Assembly (NCBI GenBank): GCA_020847435.1
Contig: JADLBX010000012.1
Span: 1-64,000, forward strand
DNA from: Anaerolineales bacterium
Lineage (GTDB): Bacteria > Chloroflexota > Anaerolineae > Anaerolineales > Villigracilaceae
DNA: 64,000 nt
Direction: 5' to 3'
Shown: in pieces, positions 1,664-50,101 of the stretch
Layout of the letters: each line of letters opens with the position of its first letter
Position numbering within the stretch: the stretch's first letter is position 1
The notes under the pieces: generated by a model
Database searches by the model: none
The model's input: only the letters and a program-made list of their open reading frames with translations
Told to the model about the DNA's origin: nothing
Made by a program: the position numbers and the translations under genes

Positions 1664-2944
1664 ATGAAAATTGCGATCATCGGCGCGGGGTTTGGCGGAC
1701 TTGCCGCCGCGTACGACCTAAACAAAGCGGGACACGAAGTCGTCGTCTTTGAATCCGCAAGCCATGTCGGCGGGCTGGCGGCGGGTTTCAAAGAGCCGGG
1801 CTGGGATTGGTCCGTCGAAAAGTTTTATCACCACTGGTTTCAATCGGACAGTTCGATGATGGGCTTAATTCAAGAACTGGGCTTGATGGACAAGGTCATC
1901 TTCCCGCGCCCGCTGACGGTGATGTACTTCAACGGGAAATTTTATCCTTTCGACTCGATTCTCAATGCGCTTCTCTTTCCCGGACTTGGATTTGGACTCA
2001 ACAAAATCCGCTTCGGATTCGTCGGGCTGTTTCTGCGCCTCACCGACAACTGGCGCGCCCTGGAAAAAGTCACCGCGCACGCGTGGATGTTGAAATGGGC
2101 GGGCAAACAAGTCTACGAGCAGATGTGGAAACCATTGCTGGTTGGGAAGTTCGGTCCGTTTTATCAGGATGTCAACATGGCGTGGATGTGGGCGCGCATC
2201 AAAGCGCGGACGACGCGGCTGGGCACGTTCGAGGGCGGCTTTCAACGGTTTGCGGATGTGTTCGCGGAAAAACTGCGCGGCATGGGCGTGGAAATTCGGC
2301 TGGGGGCGCAGGTAAAGTTCATTAAACAGAATCAAGCGTCGGGCGGTTTGAACGTGGATGTCGAGTCGTTCGATCAGGTGTTGGTCACCGCCTCCCCATC
2401 CTTGATGGCGAAGATATGCCCTGATTTACCCGAGGAGTATTTGAAAGGCTTGCTCGAGTTGAAATCCATGGGCGCAGTGGTGATGACGCTATCGCTGAAA
2501 CATCAGTTGTCGAAAGAGGGCTATTACTGGTTCAATCTTCCAAAAGAGGCGGGCTTCCCCATGCTGGCGTTGGTGGAGCACACGAATTTTGTCTCGCCCG
2601 AACATTTCGGCGGCGACCGCATCGTCTACGCGGGCGATTATCTTGAATTGGGTCACGAGTATTTTTCTTTGAGCGACGACGAATTGCTGGAGCGCTTCAT
2701 CCCCGCGTTCAAACGGATCAACCCCGAGTTTGAAAAAGAGTGGGTGAAAAAAGTTTGGGTGAACAAAACCAATTACGCCCAACCCGTGCCGCTGGTGAAT
2801 CACTCCAAAAATATTCCCGCCATTCAAACGCCCATCGAGGGATTGTATTTCGCTTCGATGAGCCAGGTCTACCCGTGGGACCGCGGCACCAATTTCGCGG
2901 TGGAGATCGGTCGGCGCGCGGCGAAGATGATGTTGGAGAATTGA
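1664..2944 (+). CDS. FAD-dependent amine-oxidase-type oxidoreductase
   Basis: The protein (426 aa) starts with a Rossmann dinucleotide-binding motif, Gly-Ala-Gly-Phe-Gly-Gly-Leu at residues 7-13, followed by the Glu-Ser-Ala-Ser-His-Val-Gly-Gly-Leu-Ala segment typical of the amine oxidase / protoporphyrinogen oxidase / phytoene desaturase superfamily. The C-terminus has the second FAD-contacting region (Tyr-Pro-Trp-Asp-Arg-Gly-Thr-Asn-Phe-Ala-Val-Glu). It is soluble and probably acts on a lipid, isoprenoid or sugar substrate. The neighbours give no pathway clue. The start has a reasonable GGAG site. The perfect palindrome at 3111-3146 ends the transcript. Confidence 0.85.
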   Translation: MKIAIIGAGFGGLAAAYDLNKAGHEVVVFESASHVGGLAAGFKEPGWDWSVEKFYHHWFQSDSSMMGLIQELGLMDKVIFPRPLTVMYFNGKFYPFDSILNALLFPGLGFGLNKIRFGFVGLFLRLTDNWRALEKVTAHAWMLKWAGKQVYEQMWKPLLVGKFGPFYQDVNMAWMWARIKARTTRLGTFEGGFQRFADVFAEKLRGMGVEIRLGAQVKFIKQNQASGGLNVDVESFDQVLVTASPSLMAKICPDLPEEYLKGLLELKSMGAVVMTLSLKHQLSKEGYYWFNLPKEAGFPMLALVEHTNFVSPEHFGGDRIVYAGDYLELGHEYFSLSDDELLERFIPAFKRINPEFEKEWVKKVWVNKTNYAQPVPLVNHSKNIPAIQTPIEGLYFASMSQVYPWDRGTNFAVEIGRRAAKMMLEN

Positions 2945-2987
2945 CGTAAATTTTTAAATTAACCTGAGTTCGGAATAAATCTTTTTG

Positions 2988-3069
2988 GGACACGGATCAC
3001 ACGGAAAGCACGGAAGAATCCGTAAAATTACGGAAAAAAATCCGTGGAGTCCGTGAAATCCGTGTACGA
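2988..3069. repeat. interspersed repeat, family A (ACACGGAT/ATCCGTG)
   Basis: Imperfectly palindromic sequence built from repeated CACGGA and TCCGTG words, ending in CCGTGAAATCCGTGT. Related copies occur at 15935-15992, 52180-52246 and 63375-63453. All are at gene ends; the last enters the thrB coding sequence. Confidence 0.75.
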
Positions 3070-3110
3070 AGTTCCCCGATAATCCTTATCCCGAATTGAC
3101 GTTAAATTAA

Positions 3111-3146
3111 AAAGACCAGCCAACAGCTTTCTGTTGGCTGGTCTTT
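3111..3146. terminator. strong bidirectional Rho-independent terminator
   Basis: A perfect 16-bp inverted repeat (3111-3126 with 3131-3146) with a 4-nt loop. On the minus strand it is followed by a T-rich run (TTTTTTAATTT), just 19 bases beyond the isocitrate lyase stop, so it terminates the glyoxylate operon. On the plus strand it also ends the oxidoreductase transcript. Confidence 0.9.
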
Positions 3147-3165
3147 GTTAACTCACTTGCAGATA

Positions 3166-4464
3166 TTACCTACCTTGGAATTGATGTTCCTCCGTCGAGC
3201 CTTTCATCGCGGCGGTGGAGACTTCGCCGCCTGTCACCGTGGTTTGCACGCTGTCGAAGTATCCCGCGCCGACAAAGGATTGGTGCTTGATGGCGCGGAA
3301 GCCGATGGTCTTTTCCATTTCAAATTCGCGTTCCTGTAATTTGACGAACGAAGTCATGCCGTTGCGGGCGTAGCCGTGCGCGAGTTCGTACATGCTGGCG
3401 TTGAGCGAGTGGAAGCCCGCCAATGTGATGAACTGGAATTTGTAGCCCATATCCGCCAAGTCGTCCTGGAAGGAGGCGATCTGGCTGTCGTTAAGTTTGC
3501 GTTTCCAATTGAACGAAGGCGAGCAGTTGTACGCCAGCATCTTGCCGGGAAATTGGGCATGGATGGCACGTGCAAATTCACGCGCCTCATCCATATCGGG
3601 GGTGGAGGTTTCGCACCAGATCAAATCCACGTACGGCGCAAACTCAAGCGCGCGCGCGACGGCATAATCGAGACCGTTCTTGAGGATCCAGAACCCGTCT
3701 GCCGTGCGCTCGCCAGCCAGATGGTCGCGGTCCACACGGTCAATGTCGCCGCGGATCAGGGTGGCGCTGAGCGCGTCGGTGCGGCCAATGAAGATGGTTG
3801 GCACGCCCATCACGTCCGCGGCGAGGCGGGCGGAGATCAGTTTCTGAACGAAGTCGTGGATTGGCACGAGGACTTTACCGCCCATGTGTCCGCATTTCTT
3901 GAGCGAGGATAATTGATCCTCGAGGTGGATACCGGACGCGCCCGCTTCGATCATCCCCTTGACCAGTTCAAACGTGTTGAGCGGACCGCCAAACCCCGCC
4001 TCCGCGTCCGCCACGATGGGGGCAAAGTATTGCACCTCGCCATCGCGCCCCTCCATGTGCTGGATCTGGTCGGCGCGAATCAGGGCGTTGTTGATCTTGC
4101 GGAGCACGGTTGGCACACTGGTGACCGGGTACAAACTTTGATCGGGATACATGGTAAGCGCGTCGTTCGCGTCGCCAGCTACCTGCCAGCCGCTAAGGTA
4201 AATGGCTTTCAGCCCGGCTTGCACCATTTCCACCGCCTGGTTGCCGGTCAACGCGCCGAGCGCGCGGATGGATTTTTCCTCCTTGAGGAGCTCCCACAAC
4301 CGCTCCGCGCCCATGCGCGCCAGCGTGTGATCGTGCTGGAACGTGCCTCGCAGGCGATCCACCTCCTCAGCCGAGTAGGGACGGTGGACCCCAGCCCAGC
4401 GCGGATCAGTTTCCCATTCCCGCTTTAATTCTTCGACCGACTTGGGTTGGTATTTCTGATACAT
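3166..4464 (-). CDS. aceA: isocitrate lyase
   Basis: Cleaves isocitrate to glyoxylate and succinate, the first step of the glyoxylate shunt. The protein is 432 aa, the usual length for the short bacterial enzyme, and carries the catalytic loop Lys-Lys-Cys-Gly-His at residues 189-193 (Cys191), with the Asp-Ala-Glu-Ala-Gly-Phe-Gly-Gly metal/substrate segment just before it (153-160). It is the second gene of a two-gene operon, 20 bases after malate synthase, and is followed directly by a strong terminator. The AGGAGG-like site (rc of gcctcct at 4468-4474) supports the start. With malate synthase this implies growth on acetate, fatty acids or other C2 units. Confidence 0.97.
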
Positions 4465-26392: not shown

Positions 26393-27913
26393 TCAACGCG
26401 ACGCGGCGTATCCATTGCTCGTCGTGAGCTTCATGAATTCGACGACGACGCGCGGGTCAAACTGTTTACCGGACTGGCTTTCGATGTATTGGATGGCGTC
26501 CGTCTGCGACCACGCTTTTCGATAGGGGCGATCGGAGACCAGGGCATCGTATACGTCGGCGATCGCGAACAACCGCGCCGCGAACGGTATTTGCTCGCCG
26601 CGCAGGCGTTCCGGATAACCGCTTCCGTCCCAGCGTTCGTGGTGCCAGCGGGGTATGTCGAGCGCCGGCGCGAGGTACGAGATGGGGGCAAGCAAATTCA
26701 CAGCCAGAGTGGGGTGCTGTTGCATGATCTGCCACTCCGCGTCGGTAAGCGGTCCGGGCTTGAAGAGGATCTCGTCCGGTATGGCAACTTTGCCGATATC
26801 GTGCAAGATCGCGCCGCGCCGCACGTGGATCAGCGAATCTTTCTCGACCCCCATCGAAAGAGCCAACTGGGTGGTTATGTCAACCACCCTGCTCGTATGC
26901 CCTTTGGCGCCGCGATCGCGCAAATCCAGCGTCCTTGCCCAGCCTTCGATCGTCGCATCGTACGCCAGACTCAATTCCACATTCGAGCGTTGCAGGTCCT
27001 GAAAAAGAATGGCGTTATCAATTGCAATTGCCGCCTGCCCGGAAAGCACATTCAGAAATTCCACCCAATCCGCGTCCAACCGGAGCGGAGCCCGGTTGTA
27101 AATCTCAAAAACACCGAGGGTCTTGCCTTTTGCAACCAGAGGCAAACCATAATAGGCAAGGAATTGCTCGTCCGCAAAATGAGGCGGATAGGCGCTTCCC
27201 GCTATGTTTAGCCGGAGGTCGGGAATGATCATGGATTTGCGTTCGAGAGCAACTTGCCCGGCAAGCCCTTCCCCCAATCTCAGGCGAGCGGATTGTACGG
27301 CGTTCGTATTAAAACCCATGCCGGATGAGAAAGCCAGTTGGTTCGTTTCGGGATTAACCAACCAGATCGAGCCGGCATCCACATGCAACAGGTTGGCGAC
27401 TTGGTCCAGCAAAATGGAGAGTAACAATTTGAGGTCGAGACCCGAAGCGATTGCAAGGTCAATCGAACGGAGGGCGGCAAGGCGGCGCACTTGCTGTCCC
27501 AGTTTACTTTCCAACCGTTTGTGATCCGTAATTTCTCGGGCAACGAGGACCAACTGCGAGTCGGAACATAAACCGATGCGCGCATCAAACCACTGTTCCT
27601 CAGACGGTTGAAGCGAGAACTCGAACGCGAGTAATTCTCCGCTCTCTCTCACCTGCAATAGCTGGCGATCGAAACGTAATGCGACTTCCGACGAAAGGAG
27701 ATTCTGAAACCTACGATTCAAGAGCAGATCGGGGAATCGATTTTGAAGGTGTGGGGTGTCGAACCGATATTCCAGGACGGTTCCATCGAGATCGAGCAGG
27801 ACGGTTAAATCAGCAAAAGCCTGGAGGATACCTCCAAGCCTCGAAACAGTTCCCGGCAGATAGTGCAACTGATTCTCCAACGTATCATCCGCAACCCGGT
27901 GGACGCGGGGCAT
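26393..27913 (-). CDS. PAS-GAF-HD-GYP protein, putative c-di-GMP phosphodiesterase
   Basis: I favour the ATG at 27913 (506 aa), preceded by AAAGGGA at 6 bases, over the GTG six codons earlier. An N-terminal PAS-like domain (about 20-140) is followed by a GAF domain (about 150-315) and a C-terminal HD-GYP domain (about 325-500). His-Asp-Ile-Gly-Lys, His-His-Glu-Arg-Trp-Asp-Gly-Ser-Gly-Tyr-Pro and Ile-Ala-Asp-Val-Tyr-Asp are intact, so hydrolysis of c-di-GMP is expected. There is no membrane segment. It is the last gene in the minus-strand run that begins with the BTAD regulator and the two small peptide genes; whether it belongs to their transcript is uncertain (110-bp gap). Confidence 0.9.
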   Translation of the reverse strand: MPRVHRVADDTLENQLHYLPGTVSRLGGILQAFADLTVLLDLDGTVLEYRFDTPHLQNRFPDLLLNRRFQNLLSSEVALRFDRQLLQVRESGELLAFEFSLQPSEEQWFDARIGLCSDSQLVLVAREITDHKRLESKLGQQVRRLAALRSIDLAIASGLDLKLLLSILLDQVANLLHVDAGSIWLVNPETNQLAFSSGMGFNTNAVQSARLRLGEGLAGQVALERKSMIIPDLRLNIAGSAYPPHFADEQFLAYYGLPLVAKGKTLGVFEIYNRAPLRLDADWVEFLNVLSGQAAIAIDNAILFQDLQRSNVELSLAYDATIEGWARTLDLRDRGAKGHTSRVVDITTQLALSMGVEKDSLIHVRRGAILHDIGKVAIPDEILFKPGPLTDAEWQIMQQHPTLAVNLLAPISYLAPALDIPRWHHERWDGSGYPERLRGEQIPFAARLFAIADVYDALVSDRPYRKAWSQTDAIQYIESQSGKQFDPRVVVEFMKLTTSNGYAASR

Positions 27914-28023
27914 AGTGAATCCCTTTGCCACTACGCCCCCAGCACCACCGCGTCATCCAATGCAGGTACGTTGGGAGTTGTCTCTTCCCGACGCTTCCGC
28001 ATATTTCCCGGTATGAGGGCAAG

Positions 28024-28302
28024 TTAGTTTGCCCGCAATGCCTGATGGACCTGCTGTGCGAAGTCTGCCAAACTCTCTGCCCTGACGGATTTGATGACCG
28101 TCGCCTCACGATCGGTAAGGGTAAAAGACTGGCCCAGATAACCCTTTGCCAGCGCTTCCTCGGGCTTGCGGATCAGCGTTTCGCGGAACTGCCCACTGAC
28201 TACCGCCGCGGCAAACAGGCGCTGAAGCCCGGTCCGCTCAGTGGCGTTTTGGCGATAACCCATAGCAGGCTTGGTGTAGGCGTCAAAGGTGAGTATTGCC
28301 AT
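28024..28302 (-). CDS. small NHLP-leader / Os1348-like protein, 92 aa
   Basis: An AAGGAG site 7 bases before the ATG supports the gene. Residues ~25-90 show a pattern seen in nitrile-hydratase-leader-like RiPP precursors and Nif11/Os1348-type small proteins: Leu-Gln-Arg-Leu-Phe, Gln-Phe-Arg-Glu-Thr-Leu, a Lys-Pro-Glu-Glu-Ala-Leu-Ala-Lys-Gly turn, then Leu-Thr-Asp-Arg-Glu and a terminal Leu-Ala-Asp-Phe-Ala helix. It stops right after the leader-like part and has no core peptide. It lies 32 bases downstream of the repetitive peptide gene on the same strand, so the two likely share a message. The family call is tentative. Confidence 0.6.
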   Translation of the reverse strand: MAILTFDAYTKPAMGYRQNATERTGLQRLFAAAVVSGQFRETLIRKPEEALAKGYLGQSFTLTDREATVIKSVRAESLADFAQQVHQALRAN

Positions 28303-28333
28303 GTGGAATCTCCTTTTCTAGATAAGGGCGGAA

Positions 28334-28522
28334 CTATCGTCCGCCCATTCCGCCATCATAGGATGAGCGGCGAGTACTACTACCGCCATCGGAGGGTGAA
28401 CGGCGAGTACTGCTACCGCCATCAGAAGGTGAACGGCGAGTACTGCTACCACCATCAGAAGGTGAACGACGGCCACCTAAACTGCCATCAGATGATGTAT
28501 TTAAAAATAGTTTGTTGTTCAT
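28334..28522 (-). CDS. repetitive Ser/Gly/Arg-rich 62-residue peptide
   Basis: After a nine-residue head (Met-Asn-Asn-Lys-Leu-Phe-Leu-Asn-Thr) the whole peptide consists of five imperfect 11-residue units starting at residues 10, 21, 32, 43 and 54. The central three are identical (Pro-Ser-Asp-Gly-Gly-Ser-Ser-Thr-Arg-Arg-Ser); the outer two replace Ser-Ser-Thr with Leu-Gly-Gly or Met-Gly-Gly. A GAGAGG ribosome site and a promoter with direct heptamer repeats lie upstream. I recognise no family. The repeats end in Arg-Arg, a possible protease site that would release short peptides; Ser/Thr density also suggests modification. It sits between the BTAD regulator and the leader-like gene. Confidence 0.6.
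   Translation of the reverse strand: MNNKLFLNTSSDGSLGGRRSPSDGGSSTRRSPSDGGSSTRRSPSDGGSSTRRSSYDGGMGGR
28337..28495 (-). repeat. 33-bp coding tandem repeats of the peptide gene
   Basis: Five in-frame 33-bp units. The three central ones are nearly identical at DNA level and differ mainly by single substitutions, which points to recent duplication or unequal exchange. Confidence 0.9.
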
Positions 28523-28552
28523 GGAAAACCTCTCTGTTACTAAATTTCCCCC

Positions 28553-28598
28553 ATCTTACACCTACCCAGACTGCAAACCAGACTGCAAAATCAGACTA
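28553..28598 (-). promoter_or_regulatory. promoter with three direct heptamers, candidate BTAD-regulator binding site
   Basis: Read on the minus strand: TAGTCTG (28598-28592), 6 bp, CAGTCTG (28585-28579), 5 bp, CAGTCTG (28573-28567), 8 bp, then -10 TAAGAT (28558-28553), 30 bases before the peptide ATG. No -35 consensus is seen; the heptamers occupy its place. This layout matches how SARP-type BTAD regulators of Streptomyces bind direct heptamers over the -35 with the last one 8 bp from the -10. The regulator gene ends 9 bases upstream. Confidence 0.6.
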
Positions 28599-28606
28599 GA
28601 CAAATC

Positions 28607-31600
28607 TCAGTTAAGGGTCAACTCCTTATAAATAAGCTCGATTTCTTCAGAAGGCATCAAACCCAATTCATCCGCTAGCAAAGATTTGTACTCCAGAAAA
28701 CGCCTTACAACAGAGGCGCGATCGCCCATTGCTGCATACGCGCGCATCTCCACTTGATAAATTAGCTCATTGAAACGATCTTGATTGAGCGCAATCTTGC
28801 AAATCTTGAGGCAATCCTGCAATTGATTCGTATCCAGGTATAAATGCGCGAGTTCATCGAGCGCAGACCGATAAATTCGACCTATTCGTTCGCGTTCCAG
28901 AAGAACCCAATCGGCATCCAGTTCTGAAAGATACGAACCTTCGACTAGTTCAACTGCTGTTCGATAAAACCCGATCCGTTCAATCACATCTTGAGATCGT
29001 TGGGCATGTTTAAGATACGACTCAAATGAATCCACATCATATTCATAATCCAAATCACGATTAAAACGATAATACTCACCTTCAAACACAACTACATTTC
29101 TTTCAGTAGCGCGTCTAAGCCAGTATATCTCATATTTGAAGCGTTTCTTTATGGCTTGAGGATCCTCAGTGCTTGACCACAGAGCACTTGCGATCTGTTC
29201 TTTGGTCAGCGGCTCTTGAGCATATAAGAAATAGAAAAACAGATCACGGATCGACTGTGTGCGCCAATCAGACACATTTACTGCCCGTCCATTGACAACA
29301 ACCTCTGCGCGCCCTAATGCGCGGATTTTTAGGCTAGCAGATGGCATTTGGATGGATTGGGCAAGTCGGCGAAGAGCTCTCCGGACAGCGGGCAATCGCT
29401 CACTCAACCGCTTCGATTTCGCAAGCAAAGTACTAACCGCTTTTCCTATTACGGCATCGCTCTGTAACGATGTAAGCCAAGAAGTTGCCTGATGCATGGC
29501 AATAAGCAACGCATGGCTTTCCTTATTTTTCGACTCCGCGAGTCCGGTGAATTCAAGACGTGCTTGCTCTTGCCTATCTGCTTGTCCATAGGTTGCCACC
29601 AGCCAAATACGGCTCCATTGCAACTCTGTTTCTCGTCCATCTTGTAGAAAGTTGGATTTTGCTTCTTTTAGAAGGCTAATTGCCTTTGTATAATCGCCTC
29701 GCAAGAGTTGATATCTACCTTCAAATAGCGCCCACAAACCGCGCTCATAATTCGACGGGTTGATCTTCAGTCTTTTTTGAAATTGATTCAAATAGCCAAG
29801 AACAGTTTCGGCATCTTCTTGCAAGAGCGCCAAATTTGCCCGCGCCAAGATTAGATAATTGGAAATGAAGAAACTAGAAACTTCATCTGCTGCCGTCCAT
29901 GCTAGTTCATAAGCTAAAGTCGCCGCATCGAATCTTTCGACCTCACTATATAGATCACCAAGTCCAACAAGAATAAGAAGCTCAGCCCGGCGATTCTGGC
30001 TGCTCCTGGCACATTCAAGTCCCTCTTCAAATGCACTAGAGGCAAGTTCATATTCGCCAAGTTGAAGATACAACACTGCAAGATTATTCAAAGTATCCGC
30101 CAAAACATATATATTTCTCTCAGACCGCAACAAACTCAAAGCCTCTTGATATAAGGATTTCGCCGTATCAACATTTCCAATCGCGGCATGAGTCATTGCA
30201 GTCTCAGTTAATAAGATTGGAATGCTACCTATTTCTTTCAATTCAAAATAAATATTAAGAGCGCGCTCCAGATCGTCTATTGCCCCTTTTGACTGCCCTA
30301 AGCGGTAGGAATTTAAACCCCTGATGCGTAAGGATTCTGCATAAAGAGGGCGCAAAGCAGAATTCGTTTCAGCAAAACCCAAAGCTTCATTAACATCTTT
30401 GATGGATTCTACGTATTTTCCCAAAAGTCGAAGAGTATGCGCCCGCCTCACGAGCGCAAGCGCCAAACCTCCCGTATCGTTATCTTTTCTACACAAGTCA
30501 ATCGCACGATCCAACAGCGCATTCGCTTCAGGGAGATTCCCCTTCATTGCCGAGATCGCCCCCCGCAAGGAGATTAGGCCGGGGCGCGAGCGGATCGTTG
30601 CCGGGGGGAGGCTGTTGATCCAGCCTTCGAGGGTGACCAGCGCGGTCTGTAGCATCGGGGTGCCGGCGCGCTCCACCAAACCCGCCAACGCTTCGGGGTC
30701 GTTCAATTGTTTACAGGTGAAATATGCCTTTTCCCACTCGCCGACCGCTTCGTAGCCCTTGACCATTCTTTCCAGGATGGGTTGAATTTCCTGTGGGCGT
30801 TCCTTTTTCAAACGCGCTTGCAAAAACTCGCGAAAGAGCGGATGATACCGAAGCCAGCGGCCATCCTCCAACGGCAACGCGAACAGGTTCTTTTCGAGAA
30901 TCCACCCCATCAACTCAAGCCAGCTGGGCGACGTTGCATGGAACGGACCCAGCACGATCTCACAGAATTCCGCGTTGAATTCTTCGGGCAGTGAAGTGCG
31001 TAACAGGAATTCGCGGATGTGCTGCGGCTGCTGGTCTAAAACCTGGCGCCCAAGATACACGAACGTATCCACACCGGCAACCTGCACACCGGCTGAATCG
31101 GATAACACCATACCGGTGATCCAGCCGCCGGTCTTGTTGATCAATTCGCTTGCCTTCTCGTCGGATAAATGCTTGAGATGGTTCTGCGCGTATAGCGCCT
31201 GCAACTCGCGCGGCTGAAATGCCAACTCCATGTGGTTCAGCCCCGCCACTTGTTCGCGCGCAACCATCAACGTCACATCATCAAGATCGGGGAGCGTGCG
31301 CGAAGAGATGGCAAGATGGCAATTCTCGTCCACCAGTTGAAGGAAGCGGTTGATTAACGCCGCGATCACCGAGTCGTCTTCCATAAGATGGTAATCGTCT
31401 ATAACGAGAAGATAATCGTCTTCGGCGCTGTCATAGAGTTCGTTGGTCAGCGCAACGAGCAAAGCCTCCGCATCGGTTTCAATGGTTTTCAGGTTATTCA
31501 GCAGGTTCAGGGAAGACGCCCCCACGCCCGGAAACCGTTCGGCAAGCGCGGCGATCAAATACGCCATGAACCTTTGAGGGTCACGGTCCAACGGGTCGAG

Positions 31601-31810
31601 CGTCAGCCAACAAACGGGCATCTTTGTATGATGCGCCAGATCGATCAGCAAGGAGGTTTTGCCATAGCCCGCTCCGGCAGAGAGCAGAATCAGTTTATCC
31701 TCAAGGAAGGAATCCAGCCGATCCAACAGGCGATGACGCGAGAGTAACTCCTTCCGCCGCGGGGGAACGACAATTTTTGTTTTACTGATTGGGATGGACG
31801 ACTTAGCCAT
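28607..31810 (-). CDS. MalT-like STAND ATPase transcriptional regulator with C-terminal BTAD domain
   Basis: A 1067-residue regulator. The N-terminal NTPase has a P-loop Ser44-Ala-Gly-Ala-Gly-Tyr-Gly-Gly-Lys-type motif (Gly-Ala-Gly-Tyr-Gly-Lys51-Thr) and the Val-Cys-Trp-Leu-Thr-Leu-Asp segment of MalT-family STAND proteins, with Leu-Leu-Val-Ile-Asp-Asp-Tyr-His as Walker B. About 400 residues of TPR-like helices follow (sensor), then from ~810 a winged-helix with Leu-Gly-Arg-Ala-Glu-Val and Trp-Arg-Thr-Gln-Ser-Ile-Arg-Asp-Leu, and a BTAD domain to the C-terminus, as in AfsR/SARP activators. It probably activates the promoter immediately downstream in response to a ligand or peptide bound by the TPR region. 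Confidence 0.92.
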   Translation of the reverse strand: MAKSSIPISKTKIVVPPRRKELLSRHRLLDRLDSFLEDKLILLSAGAGYGKTSLLIDLAHHTKMPVCWLTLDPLDRDPQRFMAYLIAALAERFPGVGASSLNLLNNLKTIETDAEALLVALTNELYDSAEDDYLLVIDDYHLMEDDSVIAALINRFLQLVDENCHLAISSRTLPDLDDVTLMVAREQVAGLNHMELAFQPRELQALYAQNHLKHLSDEKASELINKTGGWITGMVLSDSAGVQVAGVDTFVYLGRQVLDQQPQHIREFLLRTSLPEEFNAEFCEIVLGPFHATSPSWLELMGWILEKNLFALPLEDGRWLRYHPLFREFLQARLKKERPQEIQPILERMVKGYEAVGEWEKAYFTCKQLNDPEALAGLVERAGTPMLQTALVTLEGWINSLPPATIRSRPGLISLRGAISAMKGNLPEANALLDRAIDLCRKDNDTGGLALALVRRAHTLRLLGKYVESIKDVNEALGFAETNSALRPLYAESLRIRGLNSYRLGQSKGAIDDLERALNIYFELKEIGSIPILLTETAMTHAAIGNVDTAKSLYQEALSLLRSERNIYVLADTLNNLAVLYLQLGEYELASSAFEEGLECARSSQNRRAELLILVGLGDLYSEVERFDAATLAYELAWTAADEVSSFFISNYLILARANLALLQEDAETVLGYLNQFQKRLKINPSNYERGLWALFEGRYQLLRGDYTKAISLLKEAKSNFLQDGRETELQWSRIWLVATYGQADRQEQARLEFTGLAESKNKESHALLIAMHQATSWLTSLQSDAVIGKAVSTLLAKSKRLSERLPAVRRALRRLAQSIQMPSASLKIRALGRAEVVVNGRAVNVSDWRTQSIRDLFFYFLYAQEPLTKEQIASALWSSTEDPQAIKKRFKYEIYWLRRATERNVVVFEGEYYRFNRDLDYEYDVDSFESYLKHAQRSQDVIERIGFYRTAVELVEGSYLSELDADWVLLERERIGRIYRSALDELAHLYLDTNQLQDCLKICKIALNQDRFNELIYQVEMRAYAAMGDRASVVRRFLEYKSLLADELGLMPSEEIELIYKELTLN

Positions 31811-49725: not shown

Positions 49726-49760
49726 AAAAATCCCCGCGAGTTGCCTCACGGGGATTTTTT
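49726..49760. terminator. bidirectional terminator between lipoprotein and cold-shock genes
   Basis: An 11-bp stem AAAAATCCCCG/CGGGGATTTTT with a 12-nt loop; T-runs on both strands serve the convergent genes. Confidence 0.9.
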
Positions 49761-49780
49761 CGTCAGACTGATTCAGTCAA

Positions 49781-49993
49781 TTAGCCAAGAACGACGACGT
49801 TGCTGGCTTGAGGACCCTTCGGTCCCTGTTCGACAGCGAACTCGACCTTCTGGCCCTCTTGCAGGTTCTTGAACCCATCGCCCTGAATGGCAGAGAAATG
49901 GACGAAGACATCGGGTCCGCCTTCGCGTTCGATGAAGCCGTAACCCTTGGTCCCGTTGAACCATTTGACTGTACCGTTGATACGATCCGACAT
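49781..49993 (-). CDS. cold-shock domain protein
   Basis: A 70-residue CspA-family RNA chaperone with Val-Lys-Trp-Phe-Asn, RNP1 Lys-Gly-Tyr-Gly-Phe-Ile and RNP2 Val-Phe-Val-His-Phe-Ser. It melts RNA secondary structure. An AGGAGG site (rc of gcctcct) precedes the ATG. It lies downstream of the DEAD-box helicase on the same strand, separated by a hairpin terminator, so RNA-remodelling functions are grouped here. Confidence 0.95.
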
Positions 49994-50072
49994 GTTTGCC
50001 TCCTATGGCAATAAAAAATATGGAGGTAACCATTGGTATTGCATCGGAGCGCCGCAACGGCGAAAAAACAAA

Positions 50073-50101
50073 AACGGCTCACGGATCAACCGTAAGCCGT
50101 T
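50073..50101 (-). terminator. hairpin between deaD and the cold-shock gene
   Basis: AACGGCT/AGCCGTT with an inner ACGG/CCGT, followed on the minus strand by a T-rich tract (TTTTTGTTTTTT). It ends deaD transcription or acts as an attenuator before the cold-shock gene. Confidence 0.7.

Follow-up and report, generated by a model that had tools for sequence, protein, structure and literature searches.

The window analysed here, 64,000 nt from the start of contig JADLBX010000012.1 of an Anaerolineales bacterium (Chloroflexota, family Villigracilaceae), contains a minus-strand cassette in which the gene for a 1067-aa STAND/MalT-like regulator is followed by a 62-aa repeat frame, a 92-aa frame and the gene for a 512-aa PAS-GAF-HD-GYP protein. 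By position and motif, the unit of the repeat frame is the multiplied C-terminal tail of a peptide that relatives make in a single-copy, membrane-anchored form. We propose, with about an even chance of being right, that the cassette is an autoregulated peptide-signalling system, in which the tail, freed from its precursor, would act as a ligand of the tetratricopeptide repeat (TPR) region and switch the regulator. Sequence comparison supports the homology of unit and tail, the translation of the repeat frame, the conservation of an operator and the pattern of losses on the regulator tree. We infer that the peptide is exported, is cut at Arg and binds to the regulator, and likewise infer activation and passage of the signal from cell to cell.

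The repeat frame and its peptide family

The 62-aa peptide gene (28334..28522, minus strand) lies 84 nt behind the regulator gene (28607..31810, minus strand). Its product has five units with Arg-Arg joints: TSSDGSLGGRR, three copies of SPSDGGSSTRR, and SSYDGGMGGR. An earlier reading of the window from its sequence only (hereafter the sequence-only reading) had described five repeats with the consensus SPSDGGSSTRR; five units are indeed present, three of them identical, with divergence in the outer two. Tandem Repeats Finder placed the 33-bp array within the gene at 28350..28468 (minus strand), with 3.6 copies and 90% matches. The three central units differ in DNA by synonymous changes only. 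When each codon was compared with the codon one unit on in six arrays of the genus, 49 differences were synonymous and 11 non-synonymous in the frame, and the remaining two sense frames gave 3/51 and 2/53. When as many changes were placed at random, 45.0 non-synonymous differences resulted (standard deviation 3.4, minimum 34 in 2000). Ten of the 11 non-synonymous differences came from the window, in comparisons with its diverged outer units, and the other arrays gave 40/1.

By this codon comparison, the repeat frame is a translated gene. A non-coding tandem repeat, with a frame open by chance since 33 is a multiple of three, has a negligible probability: further open reading frames (ORFs) exist and one antisense frame, which shares its third positions with the sense frame, accordingly scores a similar 44/11, but the sense strand carries the start codon, ribosome site and operator, a peptide ORF fills the slot at all 63 counted loci, the 11 non-synonymous differences stand far below expectation, and the long plus-strand ORF (27925-28599) corresponds by translation to the antisense frame that scores 0/54. 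The 62-aa peptide matched no Pfam or NCBIfam family, and no convincing paralogue was found in its own genome (second match, E 1.93). Its best 18-residue hydropathy mean was -0.52, so there is no hydrophobic segment.

A direct search with the repeat peptide in 249 genomes of the class returned 194 matches at E<=1, many with stops, and these were taken as low-complexity noise. The peptide was then tracked by its position behind the regulator. In 120 genomes of the family, searched at E<=1e-60 with distant paralogues included, the regulator had 82 matches in 64 genomes; within the genus, 15 of 18 genomes had a match at E<=1e-150. The downstream stretch was analysed for 70 of the 82. The 12 left aside comprised eight pieces without the 3' end of the gene (genomes G337, G321, G323, G278, G298, G288, G352 and G270) and four distant paralogues (in G330, G277, G274 and G267). 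Seven of the 70 were excluded from the counts, namely L073 and L106, which lie at contig ends, and L127 and L129-L132, five paralogues with 25-30% identity, and the count of 63 therefore holds for regulators of at least 33% identity. In the five paralogue loci, neither the 92-aa gene nor the family peptide was found; the helix peptide present at L132 gave no match to the peptide profile. The relatives studied in depth come from one family, mostly as draft assemblies, and locus counts represent non-independent events.

Behind the regulator, a short peptide ORF was present in all 63 loci with enough downstream sequence. The peptides were first called by start codon, ribosome site and position; five missed ones were added by profile, and the call at L103 was corrected. 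Helix-type peptides matching the profile occupy 54 loci and peptides without a helix the other nine. The profile holds 39 rows, 37 of them from the counted loci, so the 54 matches are partly by construction. The sequence-only reading had taken relatives lacking the peptide frame, or units free of codon-level constraint, as signs of a non-coding repeat, and neither occurred.

The usual form of the peptide is about 47 aa long, with a cationic start, a hydrophobic segment and a tail like GAPEDGGGVGR (for example MKNNLALLAISARKINRQHIQLFFIILTLAMLVLGVGAPEDGGGVGA). The tail motif is roughly (A/S/T)-P-x-D-G-G-x-x-x-R/K/H. In 46 scored peptides, the mean net charge fell from +3.3 before the helix to -0.65 behind it, with the same direction in every peptide; by the positive-inside rule, the tail should thus lie outside. 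The last residue was Arg, Lys or His in 34 of the 46. Two further profile members, at L075 and L077, did not reach the hydropathy threshold and were left unscored.

The helix-less peptides of the window's genus vary in copy number. Three units were found in G295 (TPSDGGVGGRRSPSDGGVGGRRSPSDGGAGGR), in G320 and G302 (PADGCTGGR) and in G345 (MPADGGGGGR, with Arg-Arg-Arg joints), five in G325 (PADASTTGR), and a single one in G335 (NRRTPSDGGGGGH). Identical peptides matched the Anaerolineales records JAJTXU010000010.1 (G320), JAEURC010000069.1 (G302), CASGHD010000110.1 (G325) and JAICRQ010000021.1 (G345). Six of the seven helix-less members of the genus thus carry three or five tail copies, with two or three Arg at 16/16 joints. 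The sequence-only reading had asked whether unit number varies while the RR ends are kept, and this is the case. Elsewhere, helix-less peptides were found at L112 (RTDEPEDGGIGIGPK) and L119 (DTRCPEEVGGIGR). At L150 (G254:C158, ~2640-3690), one cassette holds three successive helix-type peptide matches and two operator copies.

The order in which the derived form arose could be read in part from a membrane protein, DUF5317 (PF17248), whose gene is present in 41 of the 63 loci, one of them decayed, and absent from the window locus. A genome-wide search of the genus found no DUF5317 in 16 of 18 genomes (assemblies 80-99% complete), including the six with repeats. In the remaining two, it is full-length at a second cassette (G330) or partial and decayed (G335). 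In a tree of 30 regulators, midpoint-rooted for drawing only, those of the seven helix-less genus members group together in a single clade (96/96). In the adjacent clade, the helix is kept and DUF5317 is absent from the cassette; relatives with both helix and DUF5317 lie apart from both clades. At the independent helix losses of L112 and L119, DUF5317 is absent from the cassette or decayed. This pattern suggests that, within the genus, loss of DUF5317 was likely followed by loss of the helix and then by tail multiplication, which may have occurred once or twice, with one unit in G335 and three in its sister G345. Weighing against a strict tie between the two losses, 14 of the 54 helix-type loci also lack DUF5317. 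At L151 (G548:C9), a helix peptide, DUF5317 and the same kind of direct repeat stand behind a truB-like gene with no regulator adjoining, and from this locus peptide and DUF5317 may be the older pair. We found no paper on DUF5317.

Operator, regulator and accompanying genes

Between the regulator and peptide genes lies a 12-bp tandem direct repeat, TTTTGCAGTCTG GTTTGCAGTCTG (28567..28590, minus strand), detected by self-match at period 12. A -10-like hexamer, TAAGAT (28553..28558, minus strand), can be read 8 bp past its second unit. The repeat unit is TTTTGAAGCCTG, twice, in many family members, and TTTTGCATCCTG or TTTTGTAGCCTG in much of the genus. A self-match of at least 11 of 12 bases at period 12 occurred in 42/63 loci, and each of the other 23 periods (7 to 30) reached this in at most one locus. 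An 11-bp reading was ruled out by this period. In 51 of the 56 loci with a placeable second unit, TANNNT began precisely 8 bp downstream of that unit, and none of the remaining offsets up to 20 had it in more than six loci; a looser count, which took the first TANNNT or TGNNNT met, had given 37/56 before this strict recount. In excerpts of PMC10972967 and PMC5930380, SARP targets are described as tandem direct repeats near or overlapping the -35 element, with heptamers in classically 11-bp units. By its layout, the intergenic repeat is a candidate SARP/BTAD-type operator.

Within its own genome (88.6% complete), the window operator was the sole site when up to 3 mismatches were allowed. The consensus pattern found 47 sites in 36 of the 120 family genomes, and the reversed pattern none. 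By position, 34 of these sites belong to peptide cassettes. The 13 elsewhere had TANNNT at 8 bp in seven cases, at 7 bp in two and not at all in four. Two of them (L210 and L213; G340:C14, G312:C14), with TANNNT at 8 bp, precede RHS-repeat/SpvB-like proteins of more than 1600 aa, an arrangement that may place large surface proteins under the control of the regulator in some genomes. Other copies stand before a DUF5122 protein (L203), before two unknown proteins related to each other (L211, L212) and, at L204, L205 and L209, before a conserved 131-aa protein (MASRIQAIGALRPRIELDK...) that by eye resembles DNA-binding proteins of the HU type. One site inside an opposite ORF looks like chance (L200). 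Among seven regulator loci from other families, L057, L058 and L062 showed a full match (12 of 12) at period 12, in units of different sequence; L152, L059 and both loci of L061 had no outstanding 12-bp period.

The regulator was assigned from its ORF, profile matches, a PDB match and a structure model. Its residues 1-440 match MalT (E 2.4e-60), at 204.5 bits against the 537-bit equivalog cut-off, and MalT in the PDB (8bob) matches at E 8.2e-35. Pfam matches identified TPRs (TPR_12, 2e-20; TPR_MalT, 5.8e-15) and, above the cut-off, a BTAD domain at residues 925-1063 (E 1.2e-12). The layout is an ATPase (~1-400), TPRs (~370-806), a presumed winged helix (~820-920) and the BTAD. The winged helix was assigned by reading and position alone; no Pfam match covers it among the matches listed (25 of 28), and the model there is mostly below 55 in predicted local distance difference test (pLDDT). 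Overall, the model had a mean pLDDT of 69.8 and a predicted TM-score of 0.49, with the ATPase and winged-helix parts too weak for use. The modelled TPR region was about equally similar to MalT and to the peptide receptors Rap and NprR (VIA-align). Identity between the window and G295 regulators was 66% in the TPR region, 88% in the ATPase part and 94% in the linker. Divergence of this kind is suggestive of a change of ligand, yet it is also usual and was not used as proof.

The 92-aa protein (28024..28302, minus strand), identified by profile matches and its relatives, resembles NHLP-clan families. It matched Os1348 NF038399 at E 3.8e-8 (33.3 bits, cut-off 40) and Frankia_peptide PF14407 at E 1.8e-4 (22.1 bits, cut-off 48). 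Its gene was found in 63/63 loci with a profile of six seeds, four of them from these genomes. In an alignment of eight family members, all stop at residue 92 and none has a variable core. A PDB sequence search with the family gave nothing significant and did not recover Os1348. NF038399 is apparently named after Os1348 of Pseudomonas, which according to excerpts of PMC7726476 has been crystallised as a dimer, has an unclear mechanism and has been tied to antibiotic activity. The 92-aa protein may serve as an escort or as another ligand. No maturase or exporter was recognised by eye among the window ORFs or in the stretches of ten relatives, and a Pfam scan covered five window proteins. Given the missing core, the scores under the family cut-offs and the lack of a recognised maturase, a strict NHLP/Nif11 leader of a ribosomally synthesized and post-translationally modified peptide (RiPP) was not borne out. 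What stands of the sequence-only reading overall is a real peptide gene paired with a BTAD regulator. Its remark that neither maturase nor exporter lies beside the peptide agrees with the window, but in 41/63 relatives the membrane protein DUF5317 adjoins it.

The order and strand of regulator, 62-aa and 92-aa genes agree with the ORF map, and a Shine-Dalgarno-like AGAGAGG or AAAGGAG precedes each small gene, all as the sequence-only reading had claimed. It had described the triad correctly but overlooked the intergenic operator and the gene behind the triad, which encodes the PAS-GAF-HD-GYP protein assigned by Pfam (26393..27931, minus strand) and closes the cassette. At L057, this position is taken by a PAS plus histidine kinase protein. 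HD-GYP domains are linked to cyclic-di-GMP turnover, and by analogy the gene suggests an output there. In three of the 18 genus genomes (G309, G314, G343), an inositol-phosphatase-type gene directly adjoins a SurE-like gene at the cassette site, and all four cassette genes (regulator, peptide, 92-aa, HD-GYP) are therefore missing at the site. No regulator match turned up elsewhere in these genomes at E<=1e-150. Apart from the cassette, the window contains an Rfam cspA thermoregulator match (49726-50095, minus strand) over a 70-aa cold-shock-like gene (49781-49993), behind a DEAD-box helicase-like gene.

Proposed mechanism and rival explanations

In the proposed mechanism, the regulator would bind the 12-bp direct repeat that immediately follows its own gene and activate an operon of peptide, DUF5317 where present, NHLP-like protein and PAS sensor. 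The active part of the peptide would be its short tail. In the ancestral form, a peptide with one helix would carry the tail at its outer end, and DUF5317 would probably help to release it. The clade of the window would have lost DUF5317 and then the helix, and multiplied the tail into a soluble string, whose Arg-Arg joints would be cut to give near-identical tail peptides. Re-imported or made inside, the tail would sit in the TPR groove and switch the regulator. The layout, a TPR regulator followed by a small gene with a conserved and sometimes multiplied end, is RRNPP-like, and we therefore propose the tail as the ligand. Since the ligand-bound regulator would activate the operon, a feedback loop would result, with the regulator as its proposed autoregulating receptor. 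The suggestion of the sequence-only reading that the peptide may be the ligand of its own regulator fits the findings.

The best-surviving rival, which we consider unlikely but well worth weighing, is that the peptide is an uncleaved small partner of the regulator, an inhibitor or tether. The ancestral form would hold the regulator at the membrane, and the derived form would be a soluble multivalent binder. The pairing of regulator and peptide at all 63 loci is consistent with such a partner; repeats would raise valency, and no protease or exporter gene was recognised by eye near the window peptide. However, the positive-inside rule would place the tail of the helix form outside, beyond the reach of a cytosolic regulator. 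The basic last residue and the Arg-Arg joints are also better explained by cutting.

Less probable still is that the tail is exported as a bioactive product, either a bacteriocin or a peptide that undergoes modification; the NHLP-like protein would then serve in trans as its leader or escort, and the regulator would do no more than switch production. The constant NHLP-like neighbour (63/63) and the antibiotic link of Pseudomonas Os1348 (in excerpts of PMC7726476) speak for it, as does L106 (G260:C42:3326-3897), where the slot holds another short peptide (MNEEKLETPDEPIELTVEELPEYILTLCCGVGCGGGLK), followed by the apparent start of an ABC transporter ATPase at the contig end; this Cys/Gly-rich peptide looks like one swapped into the same slot. 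Set against this, no modifying enzyme or exporter was recognised in the cassettes read, the NHLP-like protein scores under both curated cut-offs and has no core, and in some genomes the operator precedes unrelated genes.

SecM-like peptides are arrest peptides that control the translation of the genes that follow. The cassette peptide as such a nascent-chain monitor has a slightly smaller chance than an exported product. A helix and then a short Pro/Gly-rich tail ending at the stop codon would suit this role, and in relatives such as L034 the stop codon is near the DUF5317 start. Constrained tandem copies and the loss of the helix would, however, be unexpected in an arrest peptide, whose final residues are the ones that matter. 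The GGRR and STRR composition suggests an Arg/Gly-rich nucleic-acid or scaffold binder without a signalling role, but this is improbable, as the units are each similar to the one tail that helix peptides carry in that slot, and copy number among the seven genus members without a helix spans one to five.

Relation to known systems and implications

We scored the cassette as a peptide-signalling system on the five criteria for RRNPP systems in PMC10075063. The propeptide of 62 aa lies within the range of 10-100 aa, and the receptor and propeptide genes adjoin, 84 nt apart. The receptor has 1067 aa, outside the range of 250-500 aa, and the Sec signal is lacking in the window peptide, which has no hydrophobic segment; the relatives have one. 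SHP and PrgQ are named as Sec-signal exceptions in excerpts of PMC10075063. As in the RRNPP/RRNPPA systems of Bacillota (Rap-Phr, PlcR-PapR, NprR-NprX, AimR), the gene for a TPR receptor directly precedes one for a small propeptide, with the presumed signal at its C-terminus. On the criterion of peptide-recognising TPRs, the receptor has TPRs, and their modelled fold is like those of Rap and NprR but equally like that of MalT. Propeptides with up to 6 signal copies are known (excerpts of PMC9765709 and PMC11343458), and multi-copy ones are cut outside the cell (also excerpts of PMC10075063). In contrast, the receptor here is a STAND ATPase with a BTAD domain, the host belongs to Chloroflexota, DUF5317 and NHLP-like genes take part, and the repeat form has neither helix nor export signal. 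The cassette is RRNPP-like in logic and not an RRNPP member.

Other families share single features with the cassette. Large SARPs and SARP-LALs of Streptomyces (AfsR, PimR) likewise combine BTAD, NTPase and TPR and use tandem direct-repeat operators, and a predicted direct-repeat site lies near the target promoter here as well. However, the BTAD is C-terminal in the window protein (925-1063), whereas the SARP part is N-terminal; the unit has 12 bp instead of the classical 11, and the site stands before a peptide operon adjoining the regulator. MalT has a LuxR-type C-terminus where the regulator has BTAD, and the regulator scores far under the MalT equivalog cut-off. The 92-aa protein aligns to both NHLP-clan RiPP precursor profiles, but under their cut-offs, with no core behind the leader-like part and no maturase seen. 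As described in excerpts of PMC10518010, RopB-LCP of Bacillota also pairs a leaderless signal peptide with its regulator, but the peptide is single and short and the receptor is of the RopB/Rgg type.

Among the literature matches listed, no title or abstract described this cassette or a Chloroflexota peptide-signalling system, and one survey (PMC8895600, in excerpts) notes for this phylum only parts of known two-component pathways. Somewhat more tentatively than the signalling reading itself, the cassette may represent a new class of peptide communication in Chloroflexota, with an autoregulating STAND-BTAD receptor that reads a tail peptide, a precursor that within one genus passes from an anchored single copy (with DUF5317) to a soluble polyprotein cut at Arg-Arg, and an operator that in some relatives is also linked to large secreted Rhs-like proteins.

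To our knowledge, the ligands of STAND-BTAD regulators are mostly unknown. The cassette gives these regulators a concrete candidate ligand of about 10 residues, which is open to synthesis. It also provides a graded natural series of the precursor, from one membrane-borne copy to a multi-copy string.

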